A stretch of 38,273 bases of DNA from Gelidibacter salicanalis (GTDB lineage: Bacteria > Bacteroidota > Bacteroidia > Flavobacteriales > Flavobacteriaceae). Shown piece by piece: positions 19,681 to 35,974 of this stretch. Under the pieces are notes generated by a model, which saw only the letters and a program-made list of their open reading frames with translations, did not search any database and was not told the origin of the DNA. The stretch is from assembly GCF_016469035.1 (NCBI RefSeq), contig NZ_JAEHJZ010000059.1:1-38273 (forward strand), written 5' to 3'. Positions within the stretch are counted from its first letter, which is position 1, and each line of letters starts with the position of its first letter. The position numbers and the translations under genes are program-made.

Positions 19681-19714
19681 AAAAGCTTGATAATCATACG
19701 ATTATCAAGCTTTT
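19681..19714. terminator. Strong bidirectional terminator
   Basis: AAAAGCTTGATAATC (19681-19695), loop ATAC, then GATTATCAAGCTTTT (19700-19714): a perfect 15-bp stem with A and T tracts at its ends. It serves the EEP gene from the left and the large operon from the right. Confidence 0.88.
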
Positions 19715-19913: not shown

Positions 19914-22900
19914 TCAATTAACTAAGATAAATTGTAAATAACCATCATTTTTTGTCGCTATCAAAAAATCACGTCCCTTTACAGTAACTTTATCTAAATC
20001 TTTAACATCGCCAGGAATAAACAACCCACTTTCTGATGGTGATAAAGCCTCGAACTCCCCCTTACTATTTCCTTTTAAATAAAGACTGAATCCAGCATCG
20101 TTACGTGGTGTTTCTACTTCAGAGCTAAAGAAATTACCAGCAATTACAAAATCTAAAGCCCCATCTTTATCATAGTCATCTACCAAGATTTTATTGATAC
20201 TAGATATTTGAGCTTCAACAGTTAATTCATGAATAATAAATTTACCATCTTTATTTTCCAAATATACACTTGCAAAGGATTTTACTTGATAATGGATAGC
20301 AGATTCTAAGGCATCTTTTTCGTAAACATCAACAAGTGTGGCATTTGAAAAGGTCTCATAGTTTTTAAATTTTTCTTTAATATTTGGATTTTGCTGCGAT
20401 GAACATTCGCGACCTCTAACAGGATATTGTTTGCCTTCATTGTAGTAACTTAAAACAATGTCTTTTTTATTATCGTTATCAAAATCATTCGCATAAATAT
20501 CGAAGGTTTCATCTTCTGTGGCTTTGTATTTATAATTTAAACCATTGTTTCCAACAATATAATCCATGTCGCCATCGCCATCAAAATCGCCTTCATTAAT
20601 GCTCCACCACCAACCTGTAGTATCTTTATTAAGTCCGACTTCTTCTGAAATTTCTTTAAAAATTCCATCCGTATTTTCAAAAACACGAATAGGCATCCAT
20701 TCTCCTACAATAATAATATCTTCTGAATTATCATTATTAAAGTCAGTTATAACCGCCGATGTTGCCATACCTAAATTCTGAAATGCTTTTGCGTGAATCG
20801 CAGTAACATCTTCAAATTTCACAATACCATTTTTACTCTTATTTTCTAATAAATATGTGTTGGCAGGAGCAGGGTAATTTCCAGGAATTTGTCTACCCAA
20901 GACGAGTAAATCTTGTTTACCATCTTTATTAAAGTCTAGGTTATAAACATTTGAACCACTTGTAATCATCTCAGGGAGCGCACTTGATTTTGTAAAGTTT
21001 CCTGAACCATCGTTAATATAAAGACGGTCTTGAAGCATTTTAGATTTCGACGAGAATTCATAACCACCACTAACTACATATAAATCATTATCGCCATCGT
21101 TATCAGCATCAAAAATTAAAGCACCAACATCTTCACTTAATTGATCTTGTTCTAGAACTGAGTTTTCTTGTTTTTCAAAACCGCTTTCAGTTTGAAAGTA
21201 TAAACTTCCTGTTCTATTAAAAGCCCCACCAACAAAATAATCATCTAATCCGTCGTTATTTAAATCGCCTACAGCAAGCGCAGGACCAAAAGCGGACATT
21301 TTATGTGGCAATAAGACTTGATATTTAAAATCGTCAAAGGGGTTTTCATCATGTTTATGCTCTGGAAAAAGTCCTTCAATCTTAGAATTAAAAATAGGTT
21401 TATTCAGGTTTATTTGTTCGTTTTCAAGACTTGCATTGGAATGATTAAAAATTAGCGTTTGATTTGCTTTGACATCCTTTTTAATTTCTACAGAACCATC
21501 TGACCAAACTACTTTTAGTTCTGCAATTTTATCTGATTGACCCAAACCGAAATGTAATTCTGGTGCAACAGAAGATTGGAAACCACGGGTTAGTGTCAAC
21601 TCTTGCATTTGCGTTTCTCCATTTACAGTAACGAAAACACGATTTCCTAAACCAAATTTATTATTGGTTGTGCCTTCAAATTGAAGAGTAATATGGTTAT
21701 TTATTTCTGAACTGTTATTTTGAAAAACAGAAGCTTTATCGTCAATATTATTAGTGATGATTTCTAAATCTCCATCGTTATCCAAATCAGCGTAAGCCAC
21801 ACCATTTGAAAACCCTTTAAATTCAATTCCCCAATCTTTATTGGCTTGCGTAAAGTTTAAATCCCCGTTGTTTTTATAGATGAAATTATCAATTTTTTCT
21901 GAAGGAATTTTTAAACTCATCTCCAACGTTTTATCACTATCGATAGTAAAGGCATCATCAATCTGATTGAAGAAATCACGGTTGTTCACTTCACGACGTG
22001 TACCGTTTGAAACGAATAAATCTTTTAAACCATCATTATCAAAATCTGCAAAAAGTGGTCCCCAACTCCAGTCTGTAGATGACACCCCTGTAATTCTAGA
22101 TACGTTTGAAAAAAATGGGTTTCCATTTTCAAAAACACCAGTATTCATTTGTAAACAATTCTGCATATATTGGTAATGAAAACCAGCATCAACAACACCC
22201 CAAAACAAATCGGGATTCATACCTGCCATATTTGCTTTTTTACGTTTATTGGTTTTAGCATCCATATCCACTTGAAAAACATCTAAATTTCCATCATTAT
22301 TAAAATCGGCAATATCAACACCCATACCATAAAAGGCTGTATGTGATGTGGCCTCTTTTACCACCTCTCTAAACGTGCCATCCTGATTATTCATATATAA
22401 ATAATCAGGAGAAGCAAAATCGTTTGAAATGTAAATATCTGGCCAAGAATCATTATTTAAATCTCCAACGGTTGCACTTAAGGTTAACCCGAAACTTTTA
22501 ACACCAGCTTCATTGGTAACATTAGTAAATTTGCCATTATCATTTCTATACAAATGATCAGATTCAATGTCATTTACAGTTTTCATTTTTTGCTCATAAA
22601 CATAAACTGAAGCGTTGAATTTTGTTATTGGATAGTTTGCAACATAAACATCTAAATCACCATCTTTATCATAATCAAAAAACGTTGCTTGCACACTCTG
22701 TCCGGCATCAGCTAATCCGTATTCTTCGGCTTTTTCCGTGAATGTTCCGTCTTGATTATTAATATAGAGTTCGTTAGATTTTGGAGTAAATTTTCCAGCT
22801 ACTGAGCAATAAATATCTAAAAAACCATCCGCATTTACATCAGCCATCGTAACTCCTGTATACCATCTTTCATCACCTGAGACCCCTGATTTTTTAGTGA

Positions 22901-23216
22901 TATCTTCAAACTGAAGATTGCCTTTATTTAAGTATAACTTATTTGACACTTGATTGCCTGTAAAGAAAACGTCTTTTAGCCCGTCGTTATTGATATCACC
23001 AACAGCAACACCACCTCCCATATATAAATAGGAGTATGTGAAATAGTTTAAACTATCGTTTTCTGTAAGTGTGTTTGAAAAATCAATTCCTGAAACTGAA
23101 GCGTCAAGGGTGTTAAATATCTTTTTTGTAGTAGCTTCTTTTTTCTCTTTTCCACAACTGATAAAGAGTATCAATATAAATAAAAAAGTCACTAAATTCA
23201 ATGCTCTATTTTTCAT
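19914..23216 (-). CDS. UnbV/FG-GAP (VCBS repeat) lipoprotein of the glycerol-glycoside operon
   Basis: The 1100-residue surface or periplasmic lipoprotein has a signal peptide ending FISC (C21). It consists of many FG-GAP/VCBS beta-propeller repeats with calcium-binding loops of the form GDxNNDGxxD (e.g. VGDINNDGLKD, DFDNDGLKD, DYDKDGALD), interrupted at about 505-592 by an ASPIC/UnbV domain (GLGNRVFVTVNG ... ELKVVWSDGSVE). No catalytic motif is visible. Proteins of this type often accompany SusC/SusD pairs in Bacteroidota and are thought to act at the cell surface, but the exact role is not established. It begins 14 bp after glpD and is the last gene of the operon, before the terminator at 19681-19714. 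Confidence 0.85.
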   Translation of the reverse strand: MKNRALNLVTFLFILILFISCGKEKKEATTKKIFNTLDASVSGIDFSNTLTENDSLNYFTYSYLYMGGGVAVGDINNDGLKDVFFTGNQVSNKLYLNKGNLQFEDITKKSGVSGDERWYTGVTMADVNADGFLDIYCSVAGKFTPKSNELYINNQDGTFTEKAEEYGLADAGQSVQATFFDYDKDGDLDVYVANYPITKFNASVYVYEQKMKTVNDIESDHLYRNDNGKFTNVTNEAGVKSFGLTLSATVGDLNNDSWPDIYISNDFASPDYLYMNNQDGTFREVVKEATSHTAFYGMGVDIADFNNDGNLDVFQVDMDAKTNKRKKANMAGMNPDLFWGVVDAGFHYQYMQNCLQMNTGVFENGNPFFSNVSRITGVSSTDWSWGPLFADFDNDGLKDLFVSNGTRREVNNRDFFNQIDDAFTIDSDKTLEMSLKIPSEKIDNFIYKNNGDLNFTQANKDWGIEFKGFSNGVAYADLDNDGDLEIITNNIDDKASVFQNNSSEINNHITLQFEGTTNNKFGLGNRVFVTVNGETQMQELTLTRGFQSSVAPELHFGLGQSDKIAELKVVWSDGSVEIKKDVKANQTLIFNHSNASLENEQINLNKPIFNSKIEGLFPEHKHDENPFDDFKYQVLLPHKMSAFGPALAVGDLNNDGLDDYFVGGAFNRTGSLYFQTESGFEKQENSVLEQDQLSEDVGALIFDADNDGDNDLYVVSGGYEFSSKSKMLQDRLYINDGSGNFTKSSALPEMITSGSNVYNLDFNKDGKQDLLVLGRQIPGNYPAPANTYLLENKSKNGIVKFEDVTAIHAKAFQNLGMATSAVITDFNNDNSEDIIIVGEWMPIRVFENTDGIFKEISEEVGLNKDTTGWWWSINEGDFDGDGDMDYIVGNNGLNYKYKATEDETFDIYANDFDNDNKKDIVLSYYNEGKQYPVRGRECSSQQNPNIKEKFKNYETFSNATLVDVYEKDALESAIHYQVKSFASVYLENKDGKFIIHELTVEAQISSINKILVDDYDKDGALDFVIAGNFFSSEVETPRNDAGFSLYLKGNSKGEFEALSPSESGLFIPGDVKDLDKVTVKGRDFLIATKNDGYLQFILVN

Positions 23217-23230
23217 ATTAAATCTATGAT

Positions 23231-24916
23231 TTATTCAAACTCTTTTTCGTAATAGGTGGATGCATCCTCTAAAAGCAGTTCCATATTTTCTTTTTCTGAA
23301 GCGATACGTTTTATACCCCAATTTAAATAACTTGAACAATCATCAAAAATGAGTTTCATATATTTTTTCACACTTGGAATATCGAAATATAGTCTTCCTG
23401 TTCGACGTACAAAGAAATCTGTTAAGCTATTAGTCATTTCGTGATGTATAGCGTACCAAAGTTCAGCTCTAATTAAGCGTTCTAAGGCATCTTTATTATC
23501 AAATGTTTTTGATTTATCGATAATGATATCTGATTGTTTTCCATAAGTAGCGCATAAATACCAAGCATGGTACGTATCTAAAATCCCCAATTCTAAAAGT
23601 TTTATTTCTAATTCCTTTTGATAAATTTCTACGTTATGCGAATTTTCAAGGGAAGGACTTACTAAAGGTATTTTTTCTGTTTTAGACTTTTTTAGGCCTT
23701 TTTTATGCTTACTCTTCATGGTTTTTAAAACCGCTTCAATAACACGATGCGCCATTCTACGATAGCCTGTTAGTTTTCCTCCAGCAATTGAAATCAATCC
23801 ACTTTCAGAAATAAATAATTCATCTTTTCTTGATAATTCCGAAGGGTCTTTATCTTCTTCATGAATTAATGGCCTTAAGCCCGCCCAATTTGATTCAATA
23901 TCATCAATGGATAAATTAACATCTGGGAATGTGCCATTAATGGCATTTAAAAGATACTCCGCATCGTTTTTAGTGGCAACAACACGGTCTAAATTTCCTG
24001 AATAATTGGTGTCTGTAGTTCCAACATAAGTAGCACGACCTCTTGGTATAGCAAAAATCATTCTACCGTCTGGCACATCAAAATAAAGTGGTTGTTTTAC
24101 GGGTAGTTTTCCATTCGGAAATACAATATGAACACCTTTTGTTAAGTGTAAATATTTGTTGGTCATGGAGTGGTCTTTGGTGCGTAATTTATCAACCCAT
24201 GGACCAGCAGCAGAGACATAATTTCCTGCTTTAATTTTGAAGGTATTTCCCGTATTGTGGTCCTTGCAATTTAGACTTTTAATTTTAGAATCATCATTGT
24301 AGTTAAAAGATTTCATTTCACAATAGTTGATTATGGTAGCTCCAAAAGAAGCTGCTTTTTTAAGCACCTCAATAGTTAATCTAGCATCATCTGTTCTATA
24401 TTCTGCATAAAGACCACTTCCTAAAATAACATCTTTATTTAGTAATGACTCTTTTTCTAAAGTTTCTTGTTTATTTAACATTTGGCGTCTGTCATCTCCT
24501 TTTACATCAGCTAAAAAATCGTAAACTTTTAGCCCGATGGACGTCATCATTTTTCCGTAAGTACCACCTTCTACAAGAGGTAACAACATTTTTTCTGGAA
24601 TGACCAAATGCGGTGCTAATTTATGAACAATGGCACGCTCAGAACCGGATTCTCTTACCAAACCAATCTCAAACTGTTTTAAATAACGTAAGCCACCATG
24701 AATTAATTTTGTGGATTTATTGCTAGTTCCAGAAGCAAAATCATTTTTTTCCACAAGAGCCACTTTTAAACCGCGTGAAGCTGCATCCAAAACTATTCCT
24801 GCTCCAGTAACACCGCCACCAATTACTACCAAATCAAATTTTGTGGTTTGTAGTTTTTCAATTTGAGCTGCTCTATTTAAAACTGAAAATTCTTCGGTTC
24901 TTTCCATCTCCAACAT
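23231..24916 (-). CDS. glpD: Aerobic glycerol-3-phosphate dehydrogenase
   Basis: The flavoenzyme oxidises sn-glycerol-3-phosphate to dihydroxyacetone phosphate and passes electrons to the quinone pool at the inner membrane. The 561-residue length is typical. The FAD-binding motif VIGGGVTGAGIVLDAASRG (31-49) is near the N-terminus, followed by the family signature GTSNKSTKLIHGGLRYL; FAIPRGRATYVGTTDTNYSG and GLRPLI lie in the substrate domain. It starts one base after the glpK stop, so the two are translationally linked and supply the whole route from glycerol to glycolysis. An internal ATG four residues in is an equally good start. Confidence 0.95.
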   Translation of the reverse strand: MLEMERTEEFSVLNRAAQIEKLQTTKFDLVVIGGGVTGAGIVLDAASRGLKVALVEKNDFASGTSNKSTKLIHGGLRYLKQFEIGLVRESGSERAIVHKLAPHLVIPEKMLLPLVEGGTYGKMMTSIGLKVYDFLADVKGDDRRQMLNKQETLEKESLLNKDVILGSGLYAEYRTDDARLTIEVLKKAASFGATIINYCEMKSFNYNDDSKIKSLNCKDHNTGNTFKIKAGNYVSAAGPWVDKLRTKDHSMTNKYLHLTKGVHIVFPNGKLPVKQPLYFDVPDGRMIFAIPRGRATYVGTTDTNYSGNLDRVVATKNDAEYLLNAINGTFPDVNLSIDDIESNWAGLRPLIHEEDKDPSELSRKDELFISESGLISIAGGKLTGYRRMAHRVIEAVLKTMKSKHKKGLKKSKTEKIPLVSPSLENSHNVEIYQKELEIKLLELGILDTYHAWYLCATYGKQSDIIIDKSKTFDNKDALERLIRAELWYAIHHEMTNSLTDFFVRRTGRLYFDIPSVKKYMKLIFDDCSSYLNWGIKRIASEKENMELLLEDASTYYEKEFE

Positions 24917-24917
24917 C

Positions 24918-26399
24918 TTACTTACTTTTAGTTCGTTTTGTAGCTTTTTTCCAGCCTTTATAATTTATTTTTCGTGTTTTTTTATCCATTTTCGGACTAA
25001 AAACTGTATCTATTTCTCTTATTTGAGCGATGTCACTTTTTGTCCAAACTCCAGCTTTTATCCCTGCTAATAGCGCAGCACCAAAAGCGGTAACTTCTAT
25101 CATTTTAGGTCTATCAACTTCAACATTCAAAAGGTCTGATTGAAATTGCATCAAGTAGTTGTTTGCACTTGCACCACCATCTACTTTTAAGGTTGTTATT
25201 TTTTTCTTGCTATCTTTTTCCATAGCACCAATAACGTCTCTGGTTTGGTATGCTAAAGCGTTAACAGTAGCTTTAATGAGTTCTTCTCTTCCTGTGTCTA
25301 AAGTCATACCATACACACTTCCTTTTGCTTTAGCATCCCAATGTGGAGCCCCTAATCCCGCAAAAGCTGGTACGACATACACGTTTTCTAATGGTGGAAT
25401 ACAGTTGCAAATGGCTTCGGTATCACTAGCTTTATCTATAATTTTTAGGCGGTCTCTCAACCACTGAATGGAAGCGCCTCCAGCAAAAATGCTGCCTTCT
25501 AAGGCATAGTTTACTGGTTCGAAATCTAAACTGCAGGTTAGGGTAGTAAGTAATCCTTTTTTAGATTTCACATGTTTTTTACCCGTATTTAAAAGAATAA
25601 AACAACCCGTGCCGTATGTGCTTTTTGCAATACCTGCTTCAAATCCTCCTTGTCCGAATAAGGATGCTTGTTGATCTCCTGCTACACCATAAATGGGAAT
25701 TGAAGTTCCTTTATAATCAATTGTTCCAAAATCAGAAGATGAGGTTTGAACAGTTGGCAATAGAGATTCAGGAATGTTTAATTGGTCAAGTAATTTTTTG
25801 TCCCACTCTAGATTTTTAATATTGTAAATTAGGGTTCGGGAAGCATTGGTATGATCCGTAACGTGTTTTTTACCGTTTGTAAATTTATAAATTAACCAGC
25901 TATCAATAGTTCCAAACATTAATTTTCCAGCTTCAGCTTTTTCTTGAGCACCTTCAACGTTATCTAAAATCCATTTTAATTTGGTGCCTGAGAAATAAGA
26001 ATCTATAACTAGACCAGTATTATTTTTGATATAATTTGAAAGCCCCTTTTCTTCTAAATTTTTACAGATATCTGTTGTTCTTTTATCTAACCATACAATG
26101 GCTTTGTGAATGGGCTTGCCTGTTTGCTTGTCCCAGACAACCGTTGTTTCTCGTTGGTTTGTAATTCCAATAGCAGCAATGTCTTTTGGGTTTATACCGG
26201 AATCTGACACGGCTTGATTGAATGTTTCAAGTTGGTCGTTATAAATTTCTTCAGCATCATGTTCTACCCATCCAGATTGCGGGTAATATTGTTTTAATTC
26301 TTTTTGAGAAATAGCAATAATACTGCCTTTTTCATCAAAAACAATGGCTCGGGTACTCGTTGTGCCTTGGTCGAAAGCAATCACATATTTTTTACTCAT
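24918..26399 (-). CDS. glpK: Glycerol kinase
   Basis: The enzyme phosphorylates glycerol with ATP to sn-glycerol-3-phosphate. With the ATG at 26399 it has 493 residues, the family length, and begins MSKKYVIAFDQGTTSTRAIV with the FGGY-kinase phosphate-1 motif. Other markers are TNQRETTVVWD, WLDKRT, the GxGAPHWD stretch and the adenosine motif DGGASANNYLMQFQSD near residue 405. An ATG at 26486 would add 29 residues overlapping the symporter gene and not belonging to the fold, so it is rejected. It is 17 bp after the symporter stop. No glycerol facilitator (GlpF) is present nearby, suggesting that its glycerol is produced inside the cell. Confidence 0.96.
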   Translation of the reverse strand: MSKKYVIAFDQGTTSTRAIVFDEKGSIIAISQKELKQYYPQSGWVEHDAEEIYNDQLETFNQAVSDSGINPKDIAAIGITNQRETTVVWDKQTGKPIHKAIVWLDKRTTDICKNLEEKGLSNYIKNNTGLVIDSYFSGTKLKWILDNVEGAQEKAEAGKLMFGTIDSWLIYKFTNGKKHVTDHTNASRTLIYNIKNLEWDKKLLDQLNIPESLLPTVQTSSSDFGTIDYKGTSIPIYGVAGDQQASLFGQGGFEAGIAKSTYGTGCFILLNTGKKHVKSKKGLLTTLTCSLDFEPVNYALEGSIFAGGASIQWLRDRLKIIDKASDTEAICNCIPPLENVYVVPAFAGLGAPHWDAKAKGSVYGMTLDTGREELIKATVNALAYQTRDVIGAMEKDSKKKITTLKVDGGASANNYLMQFQSDLLNVEVDRPKMIEVTAFGAALLAGIKAGVWTKSDIAQIREIDTVFSPKMDKKTRKINYKGWKKATKRTKSK

Positions 26400-26416
26400 A
26401 TTTTGAAGTATTTTAT

Positions 26417-28072
26417 TTAAAAAATAAGATAAGTACTTAACACTAAAATAGTAATGGCAATTCCAACCACTTTGGCATATTTCCAAGGCGTAATATCAAT
26501 TTCTTCTGTAATTTTAGGTGTGTACACATTTTTATTTGTATTGAGTTTACCCATTATTAACATGAATCCTACATTGATGACAAAAAGAATTCCCATAATA
26601 TGTAAGAAATGAGGATATGCTTTTGCTTTAATTATACCGAGTTGTTTTACATCGGTAATACCATTTGCGGCAGCTTCAGTTAAAGCGGCATCTATAAAAT
26701 GTGGACTTAAAACAAACTGACTTATTAAATACATCAATACGCCAACAGTTAGAACAATTTTTGCACTTAAGGCAGGAACATTTTTGGTAGCCATTCCAAC
26801 AGCAACAACGGCTAAAATAGGCACACTTAAACTTCCTAAAGATTCTTGAATATATGAGAATAAACCATCGGGAGCATTTGCTATATATGGCGCAATACTC
26901 ATTGAAATTAATGCCAATAAAAGACCAAATATTTTTCCGGCTTTTACCATTTTTCGTTCGGACGCATTTTTATTGAAAAACTGACGGTATAAATCCACTC
27001 CAAATAAAGTGGAACTACTGTTTAATAAACTATTGAAAGAACTTAATACTGCGCCAAATAAAACGGCAGCGAAAAACCCTAAAAATACTCCTGGTAAAAC
27101 TTTTTTAACCAAAGCAGGATACGCTTGGTCAGCGTTGGCTAAATCATTTCCGAAGACATGCCATGCAATAATTCCCGGCAACACCACAATAATTGGAATT
27201 AAGAATTTTACAAATCCTGCAAGTATCATTCCTTTTTGTCCATCGGCTAAACTTTTAGCCCCAAATACACGTTGTAGAATAGATTGATTTGTACCCCAAT
27301 AATACATTTGGGCAATCATCATTCCTGTAAAAATTGTGCTAAAAGGTATAAACGAATCTATCTCGCCTTTGGCATTAAATTTATCTGGATTTTCGAGCCA
27401 TAATTCACTTATTCCATCAGAAACACTTCCATCTCCAATTAACATCAAACCAAACACAGGAATCAACAAACCTCCTATTAACAAACCTATTGCGTTAACT
27501 AAATCTGAAACTGCCACCGCTTTTAACCCACCGAAAATGGCATAAATAGAACCAATAATTCCGATAGACCACACACAGACCCAAATTACAGCAGATTGTG
27601 ATATGCCCAGGGTTTCAGGTAAATCGAACATGGTGCTAAATGCTAAAGAACCAGAATATAAAATAGTTGGTAATAATACCCCACCAAAGGCTACTAAAAA
27701 TAATATGGATAATATGGATTTTGTTTGGGCATCAAAACGTTCTTGAACAAATTCAGGAATAGTTGTAATGCCTGAGCGCATGTATTTTGGTAATAAATAA
27801 ATGGCAGTAACTATCATGGAGATTGCCGCCAAAGTTTCCCAAGCCATTACTAAAACACCTTGAGCAAAAGACTGTCCGTTAAGTCCAACTATTTGTTCCG
27901 CAGAAAGATTGGTTAAAAGCAAAGACCCTGCAATGGTTATTGGACCTAAACTTCTACCAGCAAGATAATAGCCGTCAGCTGAATTTTCATCTGTTTTACT
28001 TGTGGCATACCACGCAATAAAGGCTACCAATAAAGTAAAACCTAGAAATGAAACAATTGATAGCGTATCCAT
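26417..28072 (-). CDS. Sodium:solute symporter (SSS/SGLT family)
   Basis: This 551-residue inner-membrane transporter has about 13-14 hydrophobic helices with the SSS pattern, including the early conserved stretch LLLTNLSAEQIVGLNGQSF (TM1 region) and a YYWGTNQSILQRVFGAKS segment typical of the sugar-transporting branch. It should couple sodium influx to uptake of a sugar, glycoside or related small solute. It lies 8 bp after the GH36-like gene and 17 bp before glpK. In this setting it most likely moves the intact glycoside from periplasm to cytoplasm, where the signal-less glycosidase acts. Confidence 0.92.
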   Translation of the reverse strand: MDTLSIVSFLGFTLLVAFIAWYATSKTDENSADGYYLAGRSLGPITIAGSLLLTNLSAEQIVGLNGQSFAQGVLVMAWETLAAISMIVTAIYLLPKYMRSGITTIPEFVQERFDAQTKSILSILFLVAFGGVLLPTILYSGSLAFSTMFDLPETLGISQSAVIWVCVWSIGIIGSIYAIFGGLKAVAVSDLVNAIGLLIGGLLIPVFGLMLIGDGSVSDGISELWLENPDKFNAKGEIDSFIPFSTIFTGMMIAQMYYWGTNQSILQRVFGAKSLADGQKGMILAGFVKFLIPIIVVLPGIIAWHVFGNDLANADQAYPALVKKVLPGVFLGFFAAVLFGAVLSSFNSLLNSSSTLFGVDLYRQFFNKNASERKMVKAGKIFGLLLALISMSIAPYIANAPDGLFSYIQESLGSLSVPILAVVAVGMATKNVPALSAKIVLTVGVLMYLISQFVLSPHFIDAALTEAAANGITDVKQLGIIKAKAYPHFLHIMGILFVINVGFMLIMGKLNTNKNVYTPKITEEIDITPWKYAKVVGIAITILVLSTYLIF

Positions 28073-28080
28073 ATGGTTGT

Positions 28081-29874
28081 TTATTTTTTAGTAAGTTGAG
28101 CTAAACCGCAGTCAGGAATATTGATTTCAATGACGCCTTTGTTAAGATGCACCTCGGATTGATTTACTATTTCGCCAATGCAATTAAATATACTGCAATT
28201 ATAGCTTCCAAAATTCTTACTAATTTTTGCAATAACACTTTCTGTTAATTTTGCATTTAAAATATCAATATTGTCAAATGATTCATCTAGTTGAACAACA
28301 TGGTCGTCATGTAGACCAACTAGCAGTTTTTTATTATTACTTACTTTTTGAATTGGATAATTAGCCAATGGTCTGTAAGGTGTAAAATGCCCTTTTGTTA
28401 TAAGTTCTTTATTGATATTCCAATATTGAGTATAAAACTTAACCATTTGAAGATGGTCTTTAGGAATATCTTTAAGTATTACTGAAATTTGAGGAACACC
28501 AAAAAGCGTGTTGACCATTTGTAAAGCAGCGACTTCTAATTTTTCATCATTATGCCAAGTTATCATATCTGAATGTACCGCGGTATTTCCTGCTAACATT
28601 TTAATATCTGCAATTCTAATACGGTTCATAGTCGCATCTCCAGGGCAATCAAATGCTCTAAACATGTTACCATATTTTCGCATCGCAGGACCTACATATT
28701 TTTGTCTGAATTCTATAAAAACCTCTGGGTTAATAGCTCTTAGGGTAGTGCTAACGTCTGTTAATAATCTATCTACAGCAGCATTTATGGAAACGAAATC
28801 CATTTCAGAATTTACTTTAGGTGTATCAACATACAATCTAAAATCATCAATAAAATCTAGTTTAAATCCATCTAAATCCCAATCAACTAATGCGTTTTTA
28901 TATATGTTTATAAGATATTCTCTAACTTCAGGATAGCGGGGGTCAAAAACAGGTGCCCAGCGATGGTTTTCAGTTAAAAACTTACCTTTAAAACGTTTGT
29001 ATGCTTTCGATTTTTTTCCGCAGAATGGAACTGAATACCAAAATCCAATTTTCATACCTGTGGCATGAATATCTTCAACAAATGCTTTTGTTTTATTTAA
29101 ACGTTCTGGTTCCCAATCGCCTGTAAAATCATAACCTCTATTATCATCATTGGTTTGCCAGCCATCGTCAATAATAATAGCTTTATAACCTAAACTGTAG
29201 GCTGTTTTACATTCGTCAATTAGAATATCTTCATCTAAAGTTTGATGAAAATTATACCAAGTAGAATAGAGTGGCACCAATGCGATATCTGGAACAGAGG
29301 TTGGTTTTAAATTTTCAAAACTCTCCCACCATTTAGAAACTCCTTTTAAGGCTTCTGAAAAGTGTTTTTCACCTTCATCAATTCTTAACTGAATGTTGTA
29401 GTTATCTATTTTAGATTGTTGTTCTAAAAATAAAGTGACATGACAGTAAAAACAATCATCTTCTTCTCTTATCTCAGCATTAAGTTCTAATTTGTTTATC
29501 GCGTTAGAACATGCAAATGTATGATAATTACTATCATCATGACCAAACAAACTAATAACTGGTGCGTCAATGGAAATTCTAGATTCCATACCCGCCATTT
29601 CCCAATCTGCTTGAATGCGTTTAGCAAAATCTGTTGTTGGTTTCCAAACCCCTTTTACATTGTGCGCCGGGATTTTCCATTTAATCTTTAACGGATCAGG
29701 TTTTTTTGGAGTATCAGAAGTGATTTGAATATTATATAAAGACACATTTGCCTCTTTGGAAATAGTAGTTATTTCAGTTTTGAAATTATTACAACCACTT
29801 TTAATAATGATGTCTTTTTGTGTTAGAGTTTCGGCCATTTGTGTCATATTTATCAATTGTAATAGGCGATTCAT
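28081..29874 (-). CDS. GH36-like alpha-galactosidase, cytoplasmic
   Basis: The glycoside hydrolase has up to 597 residues and belongs to clan GH-D by its motifs. The (beta/alpha)8 barrel starts near 197 (LVPLYSTWYNF), carries IIIDDGWQ (233-240), GDWEPERLNKT, GMKIGFWYSVPF (273-284) and the nucleophile motif DGFKLDFID with Asp340. The RAFDCPGD segment (406-413) probably holds the acid/base, Asp409 or Asp413. An N-terminal beta-domain (about 20-190) and a C-terminal beta-domain complete it. It is shorter than the 700-residue GH36 enzymes. No signal peptide is seen, and the first ~13 residues may be untranslated since ATGs at residues 10 and 13 also fit. With glpK and glpD downstream, an alpha-galactosyl-glycerol is the most economical substrate. 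Confidence 0.85.
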   Translation of the reverse strand: MNRLLQLINMTQMAETLTQKDIIIKSGCNNFKTEITTISKEANVSLYNIQITSDTPKKPDPLKIKWKIPAHNVKGVWKPTTDFAKRIQADWEMAGMESRISIDAPVISLFGHDDSNYHTFACSNAINKLELNAEIREEDDCFYCHVTLFLEQQSKIDNYNIQLRIDEGEKHFSEALKGVSKWWESFENLKPTSVPDIALVPLYSTWYNFHQTLDEDILIDECKTAYSLGYKAIIIDDGWQTNDDNRGYDFTGDWEPERLNKTKAFVEDIHATGMKIGFWYSVPFCGKKSKAYKRFKGKFLTENHRWAPVFDPRYPEVREYLINIYKNALVDWDLDGFKLDFIDDFRLYVDTPKVNSEMDFVSINAAVDRLLTDVSTTLRAINPEVFIEFRQKYVGPAMRKYGNMFRAFDCPGDATMNRIRIADIKMLAGNTAVHSDMITWHNDEKLEVAALQMVNTLFGVPQISVILKDIPKDHLQMVKFYTQYWNINKELITKGHFTPYRPLANYPIQKVSNNKKLLVGLHDDHVVQLDESFDNIDILNAKLTESVIAKISKNFGSYNCSIFNCIGEIVNQSEVHLNKGVIEINIPDCGLAQLTKK

Positions 29875-29901
29875 AAAATATAGCTTGTTTTATAATGATT
29901 A

Positions 29902-29931
29902 AAAACCAAGTCAAACTATAAACTCGGTTTT
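29902..29931 (-). terminator. Weak hairpin between susD-like and GH36-like genes
   Basis: On the minus strand AAAACCGAGTT, a short AT-rich loop, and CTTGGTTTTT form a stem of six pairs plus three after a mismatch, ending in a T-run. It sits in the only sizeable gap (91 bp) of the operon. It could act as a partial terminator or processing site that lowers downstream expression relative to SusC/SusD. Confidence 0.35.
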
Positions 29932-29965
29932 ATTCGAATAATCAAACTAAACAAAATCATATATT

Positions 29966-31561
29966 TTAATTGTAACCAGGGTTTTGGTTAAGATTAGGGT
30001 TTGCGTCCTTTTCAGGATTCGGAATCCAGATTAATTCATGTTTTCCATTTTCAAAAGTTCCACCACTTAAAGATTTTGGATGGGTACTATGTAAAGAAGT
30101 AGCGCCCATATAATCATCAGCAAGTCCCCATCGAACCAAATCGAAGAAACGATGTCCTTCTCCTGCTAATTCCATAGCACGTTCGTTAATAATTGCTTGA
30201 CGCATATCTGTTTGGTTAATGCTAGGGTTAGTATCTGCAATTAAAGTTAAGCCTGCTCTATTTCTTACTTCGTCTATATGTGGAATTGCTGCAGCAGGAT
30301 TATTCTCTTCATTTAAAGCTTCTGCTAGCATTAATAACACATCAGCATAACGTATTACTCTCCAGTTGTTACCTACGTTGGTCCCTAAGAAATCTACTTG
30401 ATCTCTAGTGCCTAACTCCATTCCGGCATATTTTTTAGAGAATATTGGTTCTACACCTGCATCAGTTGCAATTTGAATATCATTATTCCCATCAGAATTA
30501 TCTGTTGAAAAATCAGTAAGGAAAGCTACCCCCCCGTAACCTGTAGCTCCTGGATAGTCATAAACTAAAGTTTGATTTCTTCGAACAACATCACTATTCG
30601 CATCATATAAGTCTCTTAACCACGGATTTACTACGTGACCTCTATCTGGAGATTTTGCTGGTGGCGCATAATCTATATGAAAATTACCCATGCTCCCTGT
30701 TCCAGGGATATCAGACCCCCAAATAAAGGTGTCTTGACCCAAAAATTGTAACTCGAATAAAGACTCCCTATTGTTCTCGTTTGTAGTTGTAAAGTTATCT
30801 CCAAATTGAGAACCTGGTAATAGGCTATATTTCCCTACTAAGCTTCCTAAAGCAGTAGCTGCTGGTCCGTATTGTTTCATGTATAAATAACTTTTTCCTT
30901 TTAAAGCAGTTGCTGCGCCAGAAGTAGGCCTTCCTAAATTGTCTCCAGTCCAGGTTTCAGGCAACATACTTTCAGCCATTTCTAAATCTGAAATAATTTG
31001 AGCCCAAACAGCATCAGAAGTTGCTTGCTTTACTAAAAGATTATCTAAATCTGGCAACTCGGTAATTAACGGCACATTTCCGTAAAGATTAACTAAATAC
31101 CAATAATCAAAAGCTCTTAAAAAGTAAGCTTGACCAACTAAATTTTCTCTAGTAGTTGTATCTGAAATACCTTCTTCGGTAACATTGATAATGATGTTGT
31201 TACATCTAGCAATAGATTTGTAAAGTTCTTGCCATGGTTCTGTTGCCCAACGATCCCCAGGATTTCCTTGGAAAGTGGACATAGCAGTATTAGAACCAAA
31301 TGGAAATACATTAAATTCATCTGAACGTAAAATAGCTCCTGTATGTACAATTCTTCCCCAGAAAAAAGTTCCTGTTATTGGGTGGAAAGCACCATTTATT
31401 GCAGATTCTACTTGATCTACAGAGGTGCCAAAGTTTGCTGTTGAAGTAGCATTGTTGTTATTTTGATCTAAAATATCATCAGAACAAGCAACACCAATTG
31501 TCATTAATAACGTAACTGCTATTATGCCTAATGAGGACTTTATTTTTATTATATTTTTCAT
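29966..31561 (-). CDS. SusD/RagB-family glycan-binding lipoprotein
   Basis: This 531-residue surface lipoprotein is the lid of a SusC transporter and captures the ligand. The lipoprotein signal ends GVAC (C26). The TPR-rich SusD fold is recognisable from FLRAFDYWYLVNLYGNVPLIT, the ADVLLMLAEALNE helix and the family's C-terminal stretch RAMELAGEGHRFFDLVRWG ... with GGTFENGKHELIWIPNPEKDANPNLNQNPGY. It starts 10 bp after the SusC-type gene and forms an importer with it. Ligand-contacting residues cannot be named from sequence. Confidence 0.95.
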   Translation of the reverse strand: MKNIIKIKSSLGIIAVTLLMTIGVACSDDILDQNNNNATSTANFGTSVDQVESAINGAFHPITGTFFWGRIVHTGAILRSDEFNVFPFGSNTAMSTFQGNPGDRWATEPWQELYKSIARCNNIIINVTEEGISDTTTRENLVGQAYFLRAFDYWYLVNLYGNVPLITELPDLDNLLVKQATSDAVWAQIISDLEMAESMLPETWTGDNLGRPTSGAATALKGKSYLYMKQYGPAATALGSLVGKYSLLPGSQFGDNFTTTNENNRESLFELQFLGQDTFIWGSDIPGTGSMGNFHIDYAPPAKSPDRGHVVNPWLRDLYDANSDVVRRNQTLVYDYPGATGYGGVAFLTDFSTDNSDGNNDIQIATDAGVEPIFSKKYAGMELGTRDQVDFLGTNVGNNWRVIRYADVLLMLAEALNEENNPAAAIPHIDEVRNRAGLTLIADTNPSINQTDMRQAIINERAMELAGEGHRFFDLVRWGLADDYMGATSLHSTHPKSLSGGTFENGKHELIWIPNPEKDANPNLNQNPGYN

Positions 31562-31571
31562 ATTCTATATT

Positions 31572-34500
31572 TTAAAACTTAGCTTGTAAACCTAACATGA
31601 ATGTTCTTGCGTTTGGATATGCTCTTTGATCTAAACCTCTACCAAGTAAAGGATTTACGTTTGATCTTACACCTGGCACACCAGAGTTAATATTGGCTCT
31701 ACCACTATTTGTTGATGCCACATCAGGATCGTAACCTGAGTAATTAGTAAGTACAAAAACGTTTTGAACGTTTAATGATACTCTTACGCTTTTAATCCAG
31801 TCTACACCAAGTGCCTTTTCTCCAAAGTTATAGCCAACTTCCATGTTTTTAAGTCTGAAGTAAGACCCATTTTCCACGAAGAAAGATGAAGGTGCTTTAT
31901 TTCCAGCAGGATCATCAACAGAAGCTCTAGGAATACTAGTATTTGTATTGCTAGGTGTCCAAGAATTTAAAACATCTGTTAACTTACCACCATCTTGCCA
32001 TAAGATATTGTAATATCTACTTAGGTTATAAATTTCGTTACCAGAAACCCCGTTGAAGTTTAAAGCAATATCGAATTTTTTATATTTCCCGTTGAAATTA
32101 AGACCATAAGTAAAGTCTGGTGTTGGATTACCGATAATGGTTTGATCGTCTGATGTGATACCAGCGACACCATCAGTATCTACTCTGATAAAATCTCCCG
32201 TTGCGGGATCAACTTTATCTTCAACAATGTATCCGTAAAATGCGCCAACAGGACCGTTAGCTTCAGTTCTATTAACTACACGTAAATCTTCATCAATTCC
32301 AGGACCTAAAATAGTTGCCGGAATATCTTTCGCTTCATTTTTAAGGTTGAAAGAGAAGTTTGTACCTACACTATACGTGAAGTCTCCTTCAGATTTTCTG
32401 TAGGTTAAATCAAATTCAAATCCATTGTTTACCAATGTACCAGCATTTCTTGTAACAGGTAAACTAACACCGGCAGTAGAAGGAATACTAATTGGAACAA
32501 GCGCATCTTCAACATCTTTTGAATAATAATCTGCGGAAAATGTAAGTGCACTATTTAATAAAGACATATCAACACCAAGATTAAATGTTTTTGTAGTTTC
32601 CCAAACTAGATTCTCATCGGCCAAAGTTGTTTGTGCTAAACCATTAGCCGTTCCGCCACCAAAACTTGTGTTAGATTGGTTGGCAAGAAAAACAGCCTGT
32701 GTTGGATAAAACACATCAGGATAAGATCCCAATTCTCCATAAGACACTCTTAATTTGAAGAAGTTAATCGTTTCAGATTTCCAAAAATCTTCGTTTGATA
32801 TGTTCCAACCCGCAGAAATCGCTGGGAAGTAACCTACTTGATTCGCTTTTGCAAATCTTGAAGAAGCATCACGTCTCATAGTTCCAGAGAACAAATATTT
32901 ACCGTTAAAGTTGTAGTTTAATCTTCCAAAATAAGATATTAAACCAGCTTCGTTATTTTGACCTAATAATATATTTTGGTCGTTTGAAGGTAATGCTCCA
33001 ACAACTCTAATATTGTTTGAAGGCGTTCCTTGACCGTAAATACCGCTACTATTCTGATTTTCAATAAAACGTGTATAACCAACTACTGCTGAAACTTTAT
33101 GAACATCCTTAAACGTTTTGTTGTAAGATAGTGTTGGCTCAAACAATAGATTAACGTCTTCTTGATTAAATTCTGTAAGATCATTTAATTCGTTTACGTT
33201 TCTTACGGCATCAACAGTACTCATAAAGTATGTAGGTGTAAACTGAAAGCGTTTTTGAGTTGTATAATCAACACCTAGATTAATACCAGCTGTTAAATCT
33301 TCGGTAATCTCATAGTCTAATTTTAAACTCGCAAAAAGTGTGCGGGTAGTTTCTAAATTATCTTCTAAAGTAGCTAAACCAAATTGGTTTACTCCACCAG
33401 GGCCTTGAACACCAGTTGATGGTGCTTCAAAACCACCATCGTTAGTAGCGTTTCTTAAAGCTACTGTTGGCGCTGTTGTTCCATCAAAACCATACCAGTT
33501 ATTTTCCTGTAGTTTTCCTTCGGCTAAACCTAAAGACTGAGATAATTTAAATTTACCAAATTCATGCTCACTGTTAAAACGAGTATTTAATCTTTTAAAC
33601 CCAGAACCAATTAATATACCATCTTGATTAAAGTAGTTAATTGAAGAATAGTAAGATGATTTTTCACCACCACCCGATAATGAGATTCCGTAATCTTCAA
33701 TAATACCACTTTGCAAGTTTTCATCCTGCCAATCAGTATTTACACCATTAGAAGCAACAGTTGTAGAACTTCCATCATTTGCAAAACGCTGATTTAAATA
33801 ATCAGTGTATTGTTGTCCGGTTATAAAGTCTAACTTTTTACTTGGTGTATCAAAACCTATTCTAGAATTGAAAGTAACTTCCAAATCTCTGTTTTTTATA
33901 CCGTGATTTGTTTTAATTAAAACCACACCATTGGCAGCTCTAGAACCATAAATTGCAGCAGCGGCAGCGTCTTTAAGAACCGAGATATTTTCGATGTCTT
34001 GCGGATTAACATAACTCATATCGTTAACAAACAACCCGTCAACAATATATAATGGATCTGCATTGCTTAGTGAGTTTACACCTCTAATGAAAACATTTCC
34101 TTTAGCTCCTGGCTTACCTCCTGGGTTTTCAACTTGAATACCTGTTAATTTACCTTGTAAAGCTGAGGTTGGGTTACCAGCTACAGTGGTTGTCATAGCC
34201 TCTCCCTTAATTGTACCAACAGAACCTGTTAGTTCTCTTTTGTTTGAAGTACCATAACCTACAATAACTACTTCATCTAAAGAAGCAGCATCTTCTATTA
34301 ATGTTACGTTAATAGTAGTTTGATTTCCAACTGCAATTTCTTGCGTTTTATAGCCTATATAGCTAAAGACAATAATGTCAGTAGCGTTTAAATCACTTAA
34401 GCTATAGTTTCCGTCAAAATCTGAAGTAGTTCCCTTTGCTACGTTTTTGACGATAACGTTAACTCCTGGAAGCGGAGATTGTTTATCTGAAACTGTTCCA

Positions 34501-34586
34501 GAAACAGTTGATGTTTGAGCAATAGCACTAATCCATGATAAGGATAGGACTAAGCAAAATAATAGTCTTAGTACGTTGTTTTTCAT
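31572..34586 (-). CDS. SusC/RagA-family TonB-linked outer-membrane transporter
   Basis: This 1004-residue outer-membrane beta-barrel imports an oligosaccharide or glycoside with TonB energy. A signal peptide (1-23, ending AIAQ) is followed by a carboxypeptidase-regulatory-like domain (about 28-103, VSGTVSDKQSPLPGVNVIV), the SusC signature LDEVVIVGYGTSNKRELTGSV, a plug domain (about 115-235, with NADPLYIVDG and ISVLKDAAAAAIYGSRAANGVVLI) and a large barrel ending LGLQAKF with the usual terminal Phe. It is the first gene of an operon of seven genes and is preceded by the promoter/operator region at 34625-34696. Confidence 0.96.
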   Translation of the reverse strand: MKNNVLRLLFCLVLSLSWISAIAQTSTVSGTVSDKQSPLPGVNVIVKNVAKGTTSDFDGNYSLSDLNATDIIVFSYIGYKTQEIAVGNQTTINVTLIEDAASLDEVVIVGYGTSNKRELTGSVGTIKGEAMTTTVAGNPTSALQGKLTGIQVENPGGKPGAKGNVFIRGVNSLSNADPLYIVDGLFVNDMSYVNPQDIENISVLKDAAAAAIYGSRAANGVVLIKTNHGIKNRDLEVTFNSRIGFDTPSKKLDFITGQQYTDYLNQRFANDGSSTTVASNGVNTDWQDENLQSGIIEDYGISLSGGGEKSSYYSSINYFNQDGILIGSGFKRLNTRFNSEHEFGKFKLSQSLGLAEGKLQENNWYGFDGTTAPTVALRNATNDGGFEAPSTGVQGPGGVNQFGLATLEDNLETTRTLFASLKLDYEITEDLTAGINLGVDYTTQKRFQFTPTYFMSTVDAVRNVNELNDLTEFNQEDVNLLFEPTLSYNKTFKDVHKVSAVVGYTRFIENQNSSGIYGQGTPSNNIRVVGALPSNDQNILLGQNNEAGLISYFGRLNYNFNGKYLFSGTMRRDASSRFAKANQVGYFPAISAGWNISNEDFWKSETINFFKLRVSYGELGSYPDVFYPTQAVFLANQSNTSFGGGTANGLAQTTLADENLVWETTKTFNLGVDMSLLNSALTFSADYYSKDVEDALVPISIPSTAGVSLPVTRNAGTLVNNGFEFDLTYRKSEGDFTYSVGTNFSFNLKNEAKDIPATILGPGIDEDLRVVNRTEANGPVGAFYGYIVEDKVDPATGDFIRVDTDGVAGITSDDQTIIGNPTPDFTYGLNFNGKYKKFDIALNFNGVSGNEIYNLSRYYNILWQDGGKLTDVLNSWTPSNTNTSIPRASVDDPAGNKAPSSFFVENGSYFRLKNMEVGYNFGEKALGVDWIKSVRVSLNVQNVFVLTNYSGYDPDVASTNSGRANINSGVPGVRSNVNPLLGRGLDQRAYPNARTFMLGLQAKF

Positions 34587-34624
34587 AAGTTAATAATTAA
34601 AATTAGTTTTATATATGATATAGT

Positions 34625-34696
34625 ATGCTACTTTAAAATCAAAGCATGCTACTCTATGCTACTTTGCTAATATATACTTTTTTTTAATAGTAACAA
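34625..34696 (-). promoter_or_regulatory. Promoter and phased ATGCTACT repeats of the operon
   Basis: On the minus strand TTG (34696-34694) is followed after exactly 19 bases by TATATTAG (34674-34667), one base off TAnnTTTG. Just downstream lie three direct repeats, ATGCTACT on the plus strand (AGTAGCAT on the minus), at 34625-34632, 34646-34653 and 34656-34663. The first and third extend to ATGCTACTTT. Offsets of 21 and 10 bp place them on the same face of the helix. Overlap with the predicted start site (~34660) and leader suggests repression by the adjacent GntR-type regulator. Confidence 0.5.
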
Positions 34697-34757
34697 TAAA
34701 TAAGTAAAAAATACGTATGATTTTTATGAAAATCTTTTTAAATAGCCATTTCTTATA

Positions 34758-35774
34758 CTATAATGACTTTCTTTGGATTAGCTGAGAAGGGATTATTTTT
34801 TGTACATGTTCTTTCAATTTTAAATAATTAGCAGATTCTTTAGCCATTTTTTTAAAGTCGATGGAAATTGTTGTTATTCCTCCACATATAATTTCTTTAA
34901 TAGCGTTATCATTATGGGCTAATAAGCCTAAGTCTTTCCCAATAACATAGTTTCTTGTCTTACTATCTTTTAGAATTTCCCATAAATCGCTGTCATTAAT
35001 AAAAAAGTATAACCTGTCTTTTTTTATACTCCCTGGTTCGTATTGGGCTTCAACCTTTGCATTGATATTAAATTCTTTAGTGAATTTTTTAAAGGCATTT
35101 AATATCCCAATAGGATAATCAGAATCGTTATTAAAGAATAAAACGAATTGTTTGTATTTATTTATTTCGATAAGTAATTTTTTTAATTGCTCATAAGTTG
35201 AACTTTCAAATTCTTGAGTAATATATGAATATTGACTAGGAAGTGAAACATGTCTATCAATAACTAGCAACTTATCTGAAGGGATTTTTTTTAGCAATAA
35301 ACTTACCTCGGGAGTCTGGATAGGAGCAACAACATACATACCATATCTGCCTGAGATTCTAGTAAGAATATCTTTAAATACATCTAAATTATTATGATGA
35401 AAAAACACGTTAATAATGTATTTTTTACCTAACTCCTTTCTAAATGTGTTATAGAAATCTTCTTGAAACGTATGAAATGCATAAAGCACAAGAGCAACTC
35501 TTAGTTTAGTTTTAGTATTAACATCGGCAATATAATAACCTTTAAAATTTTTAGATTCTACAATACCTCTACCTTTTAAATCTTCATAAGCTTTAACAAT
35601 AGTCTTTCTGGCAAAGCCTACCTCAGCAACCATTATATTAATTGAAGGTAACTTGTCTCCTTTTTTTAAATCTTTAGCCTCTATTACACCCTCTATCGCT
35701 TTAATTAACTTTTCATGCTTAGTTAAAGTAGAAATTTTTTTTAACTCGTTTATTTTTTCAAATAGTAGCTTCAT
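34758..35774 (-). CDS. GntR-family transcriptional regulator with sugar-binding-like domain
   Basis: This 338-residue regulator is encoded 171 bp upstream of the SusC-type gene on the same strand. A GntR-type winged helix-turn-helix (about 15-85) is visible in KGDKLPSINIMVAEVGFARKTIVKAYEDLKGRGIVESKNFKGYYI. Residues 92-330 resemble a LacI/periplasmic-binding fold, with alternating strands and helices (LRVALVLYAF, GMYVVAPIQTPE, KLLVIDRHVS, GGITTISIDFKKMAKESANYL). This combination is typical of Bacteroidota sugar-operon regulators, where a sugar or its metabolite releases DNA. It is the likely controller of the operon via the ATGCTACT repeats. An IS element has inserted 122 bp upstream of its start codon. 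Confidence 0.88.
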   Translation of the reverse strand: MKLLFEKINELKKISTLTKHEKLIKAIEGVIEAKDLKKGDKLPSINIMVAEVGFARKTIVKAYEDLKGRGIVESKNFKGYYIADVNTKTKLRVALVLYAFHTFQEDFYNTFRKELGKKYIINVFFHHNNLDVFKDILTRISGRYGMYVVAPIQTPEVSLLLKKIPSDKLLVIDRHVSLPSQYSYITQEFESSTYEQLKKLLIEINKYKQFVLFFNNDSDYPIGILNAFKKFTKEFNINAKVEAQYEPGSIKKDRLYFFINDSDLWEILKDSKTRNYVIGKDLGLLAHNDNAIKEIICGGITTISIDFKKMAKESANYLKLKEHVQKIIPSQLIQRKSL

Positions 35775-35949: not shown

Positions 35950-35974
35950 AAAACCAAGGGTAACCCTTGGTTTT
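35950..35974. terminator. Hairpin inside the IS, ahead of the transposase
   Basis: AAAACCAAGGG (35950-35960), loop TAA, CCCTTGGTTTT (35964-35974): a perfect 11-bp stem flanked by A and T tracts. Between the left inverted repeat and the transposase ATG it would stop outside transcription from entering the transposase gene. Confidence 0.75.

Follow-up and report, generated by a model that had tools for sequence, protein, structure and literature searches.

What does a flavobacterium take up through an operon that joins a SusC/SusD outer-membrane system and a GH36-like glycosidase to genes for glycerol kinase and glycerol-3-phosphate dehydrogenase? The question is raised by contig NZ_JAEHJZ010000059.1 of Gelidibacter salicanalis (draft genome, 5.16 Mb), on which eight minus-strand genes, running from 35774 down to 19914, form an operon within the 38,273-nucleotide stretch analyzed here, which we call the window. 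We put the probability that this operon is dedicated to alpha-galactosyl-glycerol catabolism at roughly 80%, and from the chemistry and the organisms concerned the best match, and so the most likely substrate, would be floridoside (2-O-alpha-D-galactosylglycerol) and/or isofloridoside. Floridoside-like sugar-glycerols protect red algae against salt. A preliminary description of the window had proposed such a substrate from the gene list, and the reading is now supported by a clade-restricted linkage of the enzyme to glycerol (glp) and galactose (gal) genes, by an operator-like motif at unlinked glp genes, and by a galactosidase-like fold with matching motifs. The gene set, carried by marine flavobacteria, is probably both dedicated and co-regulated. 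Its members, in window coordinates and in order of transcription, are these:

34758..35774, minus strand: GntR-HTH regulator with a putative LacI/periplasmic-binding-like effector region (PF00392, 31.5 bits)
31572..34586, minus strand: SusC-type TonB-dependent outer-membrane transporter (TIGR04056, 787 bits)
29966..31561, minus strand: SusD-type lipoprotein (PF07980, 139 bits)
28081..29874, minus strand: GH36-like enzyme, predicted to be cytoplasmic, proposed alpha-galactosyl-glycerol hydrolase (PF02065, fold and motifs)
26417..28072, minus strand: SSS sodium symporter of the vSGLT/YidK type (PF00474; NF007790, 720 bits, cut-off 401)
24918..26399, minus strand: GlpK glycerol kinase (TIGR01311, 693 bits, cut-off 590)
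23231..24916, minus strand: GlpD FAD glycerol-3-phosphate dehydrogenase (PF01266, DAO, and PF16901, DAO_C)
19914..23216, minus strand: FG-GAP/UnbV lipoprotein (PF13517, PF07593)

Profile matches agree with the families first assigned to these eight genes, and all lie on one strand. The earlier statement that gaps measure 1-17 bp except for one of 91 bp holds for most of them but omits the 171 bp before susC, which contain the operator-like motif discussed below; the full series is 171 bp (GntR-SusC), 10 (SusC-SusD), 91 (SusD-GH), 8 (GH-SSS), 17 (SSS-GlpK), 1 (GlpK-GlpD) and 14 (GlpD-UnbV). Adjacent susC and susD genes accompanied by a carbohydrate enzyme place the operon among SusCD utilization loci, of which we regard it as a variant. 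The longest open reading frame for GlpK (from a TTG at 26486) was rejected because it runs into the symporter gene, and the likely start is the ATG at 26399, which gives 493 aa and lies 17 bp after SSS. GlpD scores below the NCBIfam equivalog cut-offs (NF008899, 317 against 360 bits; NF033461, 480 against 840), and its putative function is assigned from the DAO and DAO_C domains plus adjacency or fusion to GlpK.

If the substrate is an alpha-galactosyl-glycerol, SusC and SusD, perhaps with the FG-GAP lipoprotein, would carry it across the outer membrane, and the sodium symporter would import the intact heteroside across the inner membrane. The GH36-like enzyme would then cleave it in the cytoplasm to galactose and glycerol, GlpK and GlpD would convert the glycerol to dihydroxyacetone phosphate, and the galactose would enter a Leloir pathway encoded elsewhere in the genome, where contig 123 holds galT and galK together with a gene for an aldose-1-epimerase, and contig 2 holds galE. 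The probable role of the GntR-type regulator is to bind a tandem motif at the transcription start of susC, from which substrate or product would free it. The lipoprotein is a possible surface accessory of SusCD; the place of its gene varies among loci, and some loci lack it. Two agarase-CBM matches in the same genome hint at a red-algal diet.

Is the company of the glycerol genes meaningful? We searched 299 genomes of the family for the enzyme, scoring only the best first-pass candidates per genome (as also in the glpK and symporter searches below), so that weak copies can be missed; 58 had any match, and in 17 a copy reached ≥54% identity. Scanning named genomes yielded 62 loci, and carriers include Aquimarina latercula, Flavivirga algicola and Maribacter vaceletii. 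(L-numbers below denote loci and G-numbers genomes compared in the analysis.) In a tree of 74 rows, limited to sequences of ≥520 aa with duplicates removed and shorter or broken copies excluded (e.g., L066, L077, L089, L092 and L094), the window enzyme falls with support 100/100 in a clade of 35 rows from Flavobacteriaceae or same-family genomes and two Saprospiraceae. We counted as neighbors genes within 9 kb at ≥40% identity to flavobacterial references, with the window row's glpK/glpD added by hand to the clade total and with some contigs being short. By this count, glpK/glpD accompany the enzyme at 22 of 35 clade loci and galK/galT/galE at 12, with both at 8 and either at 26, as against none of the 39 rows outside the clade (Fisher p about 1e-12, uncorrected for relatedness). 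One outside locus, L072, has a GlpD-like gene about 9 kb off that at 28% identity is below threshold and was not counted.

Nine loci of named genomes (L033, L034, L035, L036, L038, L039, L041, L044 and L054) repeat all eight genes in unchanged order, with proteins 69-93% identical, which argues against a chance arrangement. In L034, for example, the order is GntR-SusC-SusD-GH-SSS-GlpK-GlpD-UnbV, while sister loci bring galK, galK-galT or galE inside or next to the operon: GntR-SusC-SusD-GH-SSS-GalK-GalT in L122, SusC-SusD-UnbV-GlpD-GH-SSS-GalK in L053, and GntR-SusC-SusD-UnbV-GH-[GlpK-GlpD fusion]-SSS-GalE in the Aquimarina-type L046. Another Aquimarina-type locus, in G177, has galK-galT just past gntR. 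Nine GalK, GalT or GalE proteins from L053, L120, L122, L125, L046 and L115 score over the cut-offs of TIGR00131, TIGR00209 or TIGR01179, and the same holds in L181 and for the galK and galT products next to gntR in G177; the remaining gal labels come from BLAST to such profile-verified proteins. In the minimal loci L051, L084 and L120, the gntR gene stays beside the GH gene.

The galactose genes bear on the sugar half of the substrate. The preliminary description had named alpha-glucosylglycerol, a cyanobacterial osmolyte, as an alternative, for which the enzyme would have to be an alpha-glucosidase of the same clan. Leloir galactose genes at or beside 12 of the 35 clade loci speak against this compound as the main substrate, as do the enzyme's DDGW and KxD motifs, which we take to be typical of galactosidases. 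In its favor are the partial similarity of the enzyme to GH31 and a glycerol logic like that of Synechocystis Slr1670, which is encoded upstream of glpK (PMC5002435). Glucosylglycerol appears to us the least probable of the alternatives considered here, with only a very slight chance of being correct.

The regulatory sequences bear on the glycerol half. Three features lie in the gap before susC:

34667..34674, minus strand: -7-like promoter element TATATTAG (in relatives mostly TAnnTTTG)
34645..34662, minus strand: operator-like site, one mismatch, 4 nt downstream of the -7-like box
34614..34631, minus strand: operator-like site GTAGCAYANNNTAKCAYA, the sole exact match in the whole genome

The one-mismatch copy thus lies 31 bp upstream of the exact site, and the genome holds two more one-mismatch places elsewhere, with one given by a reversed-pattern control. 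At most GntR-linked loci, the gap ahead of susC (or ahead of the GH gene where SusCD are absent) contains the motif GTAGCAYA-N3-TAKCAYA, usually a few bases after a TAnnTTTG box, an element that we presume to be of the -7 type. Among the 299 genomes, there are 34 exact places in 25 genomes. Of these, 17 precede susC at enzyme loci, 3 precede the enzyme gene itself, 5 lie ahead of glpK or glpD elsewhere (glpK in G001, G236, G018 and G075; glpD in G211), 6 precede susC at GntR-SusCD-UnbV loci that lack a close enzyme, and 3 fall within unrelated genes. The motif is found in 16 of 17 close-enzyme genomes and in 9 of the 282 without one (p 2.6e-19); in the exception, G050, neither susC nor glpK has a site at ≤2 mismatches nearby, and the stretches examined gave no GntR match.

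Four enzyme-bearing genomes have the motif just upstream of glpK (G001, G236 and G018) or glpD (G211) at a separate locus, which in G236 puts glpK about 114 kb from the enzyme. As a control, the glpK loci of G096 and G247, which have no close GH gene, lack a site at ≤2 mismatches; in all, five of six other glpK loci scanned (those of G096, G247, G102 and G026 and two in the window genome) lack one, and at the sixth, L111, a site with one mismatch lies about 3 kb from glpK. The presence of one motif at unlinked glpK and glpD genes is an unusually clean comparative clue to the substrate and, together with the clade restriction, led us to reject the glp genes as chance neighbors. It also bears on the idea that the operon serves another alpha-galactoside, such as a compound like raffinose or melibiose or a side chain of a galactan, with the glycerol genes as passengers. 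The fold and motifs of the enzyme are general to alpha-galactosidases, galK, galT and galE would suit any galactoside, and 6 of the 35 clade loci show no glycerol link. Passengers would not be recruited by a shared motif, however, and glp linkage is confined to the clade (22 of 35 loci against 0 of 39), so we consider this explanation unlikely.

The regulator itself, a candidate member of the AraR-like GntR proteins with a LacI-like effector domain, exceeds the cut-off of PF00392, and its PF13377 (Peripla_BP-type) match of 20.3 bits is below the cut-off of 26.5. It is probably a cytoplasmic sensor-repressor, and if so would bind this motif and be released on induction. A promoter scan was dropped as evidence, with 71 promoters found against 69.2 expected. 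The GntR-SusC-SusD-UnbV loci L166-L171 carry the same operator-like motif with no close GH36-like enzyme; downstream of such motif-bearing loci, G032 has a 44% relative, and no gene that matches this enzyme was found in G075, G222, G231, G164 or G286.

Could this simply be a housekeeping glycerol operon? The operon's glpK and glpD are not the sole glycerol genes here: the window genome has two further glpK copies elsewhere, at 53% identity and each beside a GlpD-like gene at 29%, which argues against this. Among the genomes searched, glpK is present at E≤1e-80 in 17 of 17 with a close enzyme and in 120 of the 282 others. GlpK and GlpD are fused at eight enzyme loci (L042, L043, L046, L047, L049, L050, L091 and L115). 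Such fusions, single open reading frames of about 1053-1091 aa, occur in many Flavobacteriaceae with and without the GH36-like enzyme, including L097, L098, L101, L102, L103, L104 and L107.

The GH36-like label given at first to the enzyme is fair, if distant: PF02065 (Melibiase) is matched over the cut-off (30 bits against 27), by residues 204-340 only and over profile positions 46-190 of 347, and is matched by 50 of 50 members at E≤0.001. The best PDB sequence match is 6lcj (31.5 bits), and a profile built from the 50 members reaches 61.8 bits against 3mi6; partial GH31 similarity is also seen. AlphaFold, given 50 aligned sequences, yields a model with a mean pLDDT of 91.6 and a pTM of 0.90. 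Among the 50 Foldseek matches listed for it, chains of alpha-galactosidases or alpha-galactosaminidases fill the first 24 places, with 12-14% identity (TM on query 0.57-0.66), and GH31 and others come after them; the GH36 label of the top structures is in part our assumption.

Eleven residues are invariant in all 50 aligned sequences: D236, D237, G238, W239, K338, D340, E388, R390, Q391, D409 and C410. These include a DDGW at 236-239 and a KxD formed by K338 and D340. In GH27 and GH36 enzymes, contacts to the hydroxyls of galactose come from the paired aspartates and the lysine, and the aspartate of KxD acts as nucleophile, a role that we presume for D340 by homology. The acid/base region of GH36 enzymes has the form C-S-G-G-G...SDNTD; the putative counterpart here reads EFRQ...FDCPGD, none of the alignments seen to GH36 structures covers it, and we take the invariant D409 as a possible acid/base. 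The modeled fold and the motifs are thus alpha-galactosidase-like, and the enzyme may deserve its own family. No signal-peptide-like N-terminus was found by a crude hydrophobicity test in the window protein, which had been described as lacking a signal peptide, or in the other 34 clade members, whereas 11 of 39 rows outside have one; the clade would therefore be cytoplasmic, with several exported relatives.

A galactolipid or glycolipid headgroup, that is, galactosyl- or digalactosylglycerol from algal membranes, would likewise yield galactose and glycerol, and such lipids are, we presume, abundant in algae. Monogalactosyldiacylglycerol is beta-linked, however, and as far as we are aware the enzyme clan acts on alpha links and digalactosylglycerol would need an additional beta-galactosidase, while no second recurring glycosidase was seen in the gene tables, where most unlabeled neighbors are unscanned. 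We therefore regard a headgroup as very unlikely.

The symporter is of the vSGLT type, and its NF007790 match makes it an SSS symporter of the PRK10484 type. It matches PDB 2xq2 (vSGLT) at E 1.2e-59 and, by a list of galactose-site residues that we take to be correct, retains the counterparts of Q69, E88, Y263, K294 and Q428, with S91 replaced by A and N260 by Q, which argues for a changed sugar site. At ≥68% identity, it occurs in 23 of the 299 genomes, 15 with the enzyme (in G086 on a different contig, L198) and 8 without. The enzyme-free surroundings are SSS-GlpK-GlpD in L096, SSS-[GlpK-GlpD] in L103 and, beside galK-galT, in L097, and [GlpK-GlpD]-SSS-GalE in L104; SSS with a GH13 gene and divergent glpK-glpD in L194; SSS with a GH13 gene, a GlpK-like fragment, a sugar kinase and a ScrB-family gene in L196; and, at a contig end, SSS with a sugar kinase and ScrB-family gene (identified by position only) in L197. 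L195 has none of the glp, gal, GH13, sugar-kinase or ScrB-family neighbors. The GH13 proteins of L194 and L196 exceed the cut-off of NF008183, a phosphotrehalase subfamily, and the best PDB match of the former is an oligo-1,6-glucosidase. L194, L196 and L197 are possible glucosylglycerol, trehalose or sucrose osmolyte loci, and the symporter clade as a whole would seem to serve small glycosidic osmolytes.

Several observations weigh against a dedicated galactosyl-glycerol operon. The linkage counts are not phylogenetically independent, and 9 of the 35 clade loci have no glp or gal gene within 9 kb: L048, L051, L052, L084 (G018), L116 (G001), L117 (G236), L118 (G026), L121 (G102) and L123 (G050). 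Three of their genomes (G001, G236 and G018) are those with the motif at a separate glpK; for the other six loci (L048, L051, L052, L118, L121 and L123), some on short contigs, no glycerol or galactose link was found, and even with 2 mismatches allowed the motif is missing from the glpK loci of G026, G102 and G050. No gal gene lies in the window operon, and the stretch with this genome's galT-galK has no site at ≤2 mismatches. The reversed-pattern control gives 12 places in 12 genomes against the 34 in 25, nine genomes have the motif but no close GH gene, and in three of them the site falls inside unrelated genes, while G075, which has no close enzyme, carries the motif at glpK. Finally, eight genomes that lack the enzyme have a symporter of this clade, and two of them, G218 and G206, have SSS, GlpK-GlpD and gal genes together with no such enzyme nearby, so the set is not tied to the GH36-like enzyme alone.

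Some loci carry further genes. A sugar O-acetyltransferase-like gene lies between the enzyme and symporter genes in L116 (10523-11083), L117 (10458-11018), L048 (4717-5274) and L123 (1953-2510); that of L116, the only one scanned, is under NCBIfam cut-offs. Directly after GH-SSS-GlpK-GlpD in L037 (16688-18613) lies the gene for an MGH1-like family lipoprotein, whose best PDB match is Thermus TTHA0978 (2z07), presumably a mannosylglycerate hydrolase; a link to digeneaside, the other heteroside of red algae, is possible. In Lentisphaerota, distant relatives of the enzyme (L085, 5590-8638; L086, 8571-11635) adjoin a glycerate kinase gene (PF02595, scanned in L086), which suggests glycosyl-glycerate substrates.

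An IS4-type transposase gene lies upstream of the operon at 36012-37445. Elsewhere in the window are a C-5 cytosine DNA methylase gene (14471-15715, PF00145), beside it a 365-aa gene (13393-14490) with no Pfam match, and a gene at 10550-12793 for a protein with multihaem cytochrome-like, HEAT and TPR stretches. Two hairpins flank the operon:

19681..19714, no strand assigned: hairpin with a 15-bp stem, 3' of the operon, possible terminator
35950..35974, no strand assigned: hairpin with an 11-bp stem, between the regulator and IS4 transposase genes

How does this locus compare with what has been described? The preliminary description knew of no locus with exactly this composition, and among the literature matches listed, mainly open-access, there is likewise no bacterial floridoside uptake locus; those matches do cover algal floridoside and the synthesis of isofloridoside with a GH36 enzyme. 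The main texts of PMC6298971 and PMC8072126, in the parts available, mention digeneaside and not glycerol or GH36. With odds a little better than even, these genes may represent an undescribed floridoside-type regulon of marine Bacteroidota in every one of its parts: a new glycosidase subfamily of clan GH-D with specificity for galactosyl-glycerol, a tandem operator at the transcription start that recruits unlinked glp genes as well, a bifunctional GlpK-GlpD fusion, and a symporter clade, paired with GH36-like or GH13 enzymes, that imports algal and cyanobacterial osmolytes intact. With named genes, a candidate regulator site, a confident enzyme model and named carriers, bacterial turnover of such osmolytes becomes directly testable.

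Like other Bacteroidota SusCD polysaccharide utilization loci, the window operon combines SusC/SusD, a glycosidase and a dedicated regulator, but it has one glycosidase without a signal peptide and no extracellular one, genes for polyol catabolism, a GntR regulator and, as its proposed substrate, a small molecule, a monoglycoside of glycerol. Its enzyme shares fold, DDGW and KxD with the GH36 alpha-galactosidases AgaA and SpAga and with the Flavonifractor galactosaminidase 9awt, and differs from them in its 12-14% identity, its length (597 aa against mostly >700), its PF02065 match of 137 residues and an invariant EFRQ...DC in place of what we take to be the GH36 sequence of that region. Its symporter resembles vSGLT/YidK proteins in the match to 2xq2 and five site residues and differs at S91 and N260. 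In Synechocystis, Slr1670 (GHL5) is required for glucosylglycerol hydrolysis; like the window enzyme, it presumably hydrolyzes a sugar-glycerol osmolyte, and its gene is next to one for glycerol kinase (PMC5002435); unlike it, Slr1670 belongs to another family, releases glucose rather than galactose and serves reuse of the cell's own osmolyte, and the part of that source available mentions no SusCD or symporter. The floridoside pathway of the red alga Neoporphyra haitanensis, as far as the available part of its description goes, lists the same activities as the bacterial loci, namely GALE, glycerol kinase, GPDH, alpha-galactosidase and GALT (PMC8703398), but that pathway is eukaryotic and makes and turns over the alga's own compound, whereas the window locus would scavenge it.

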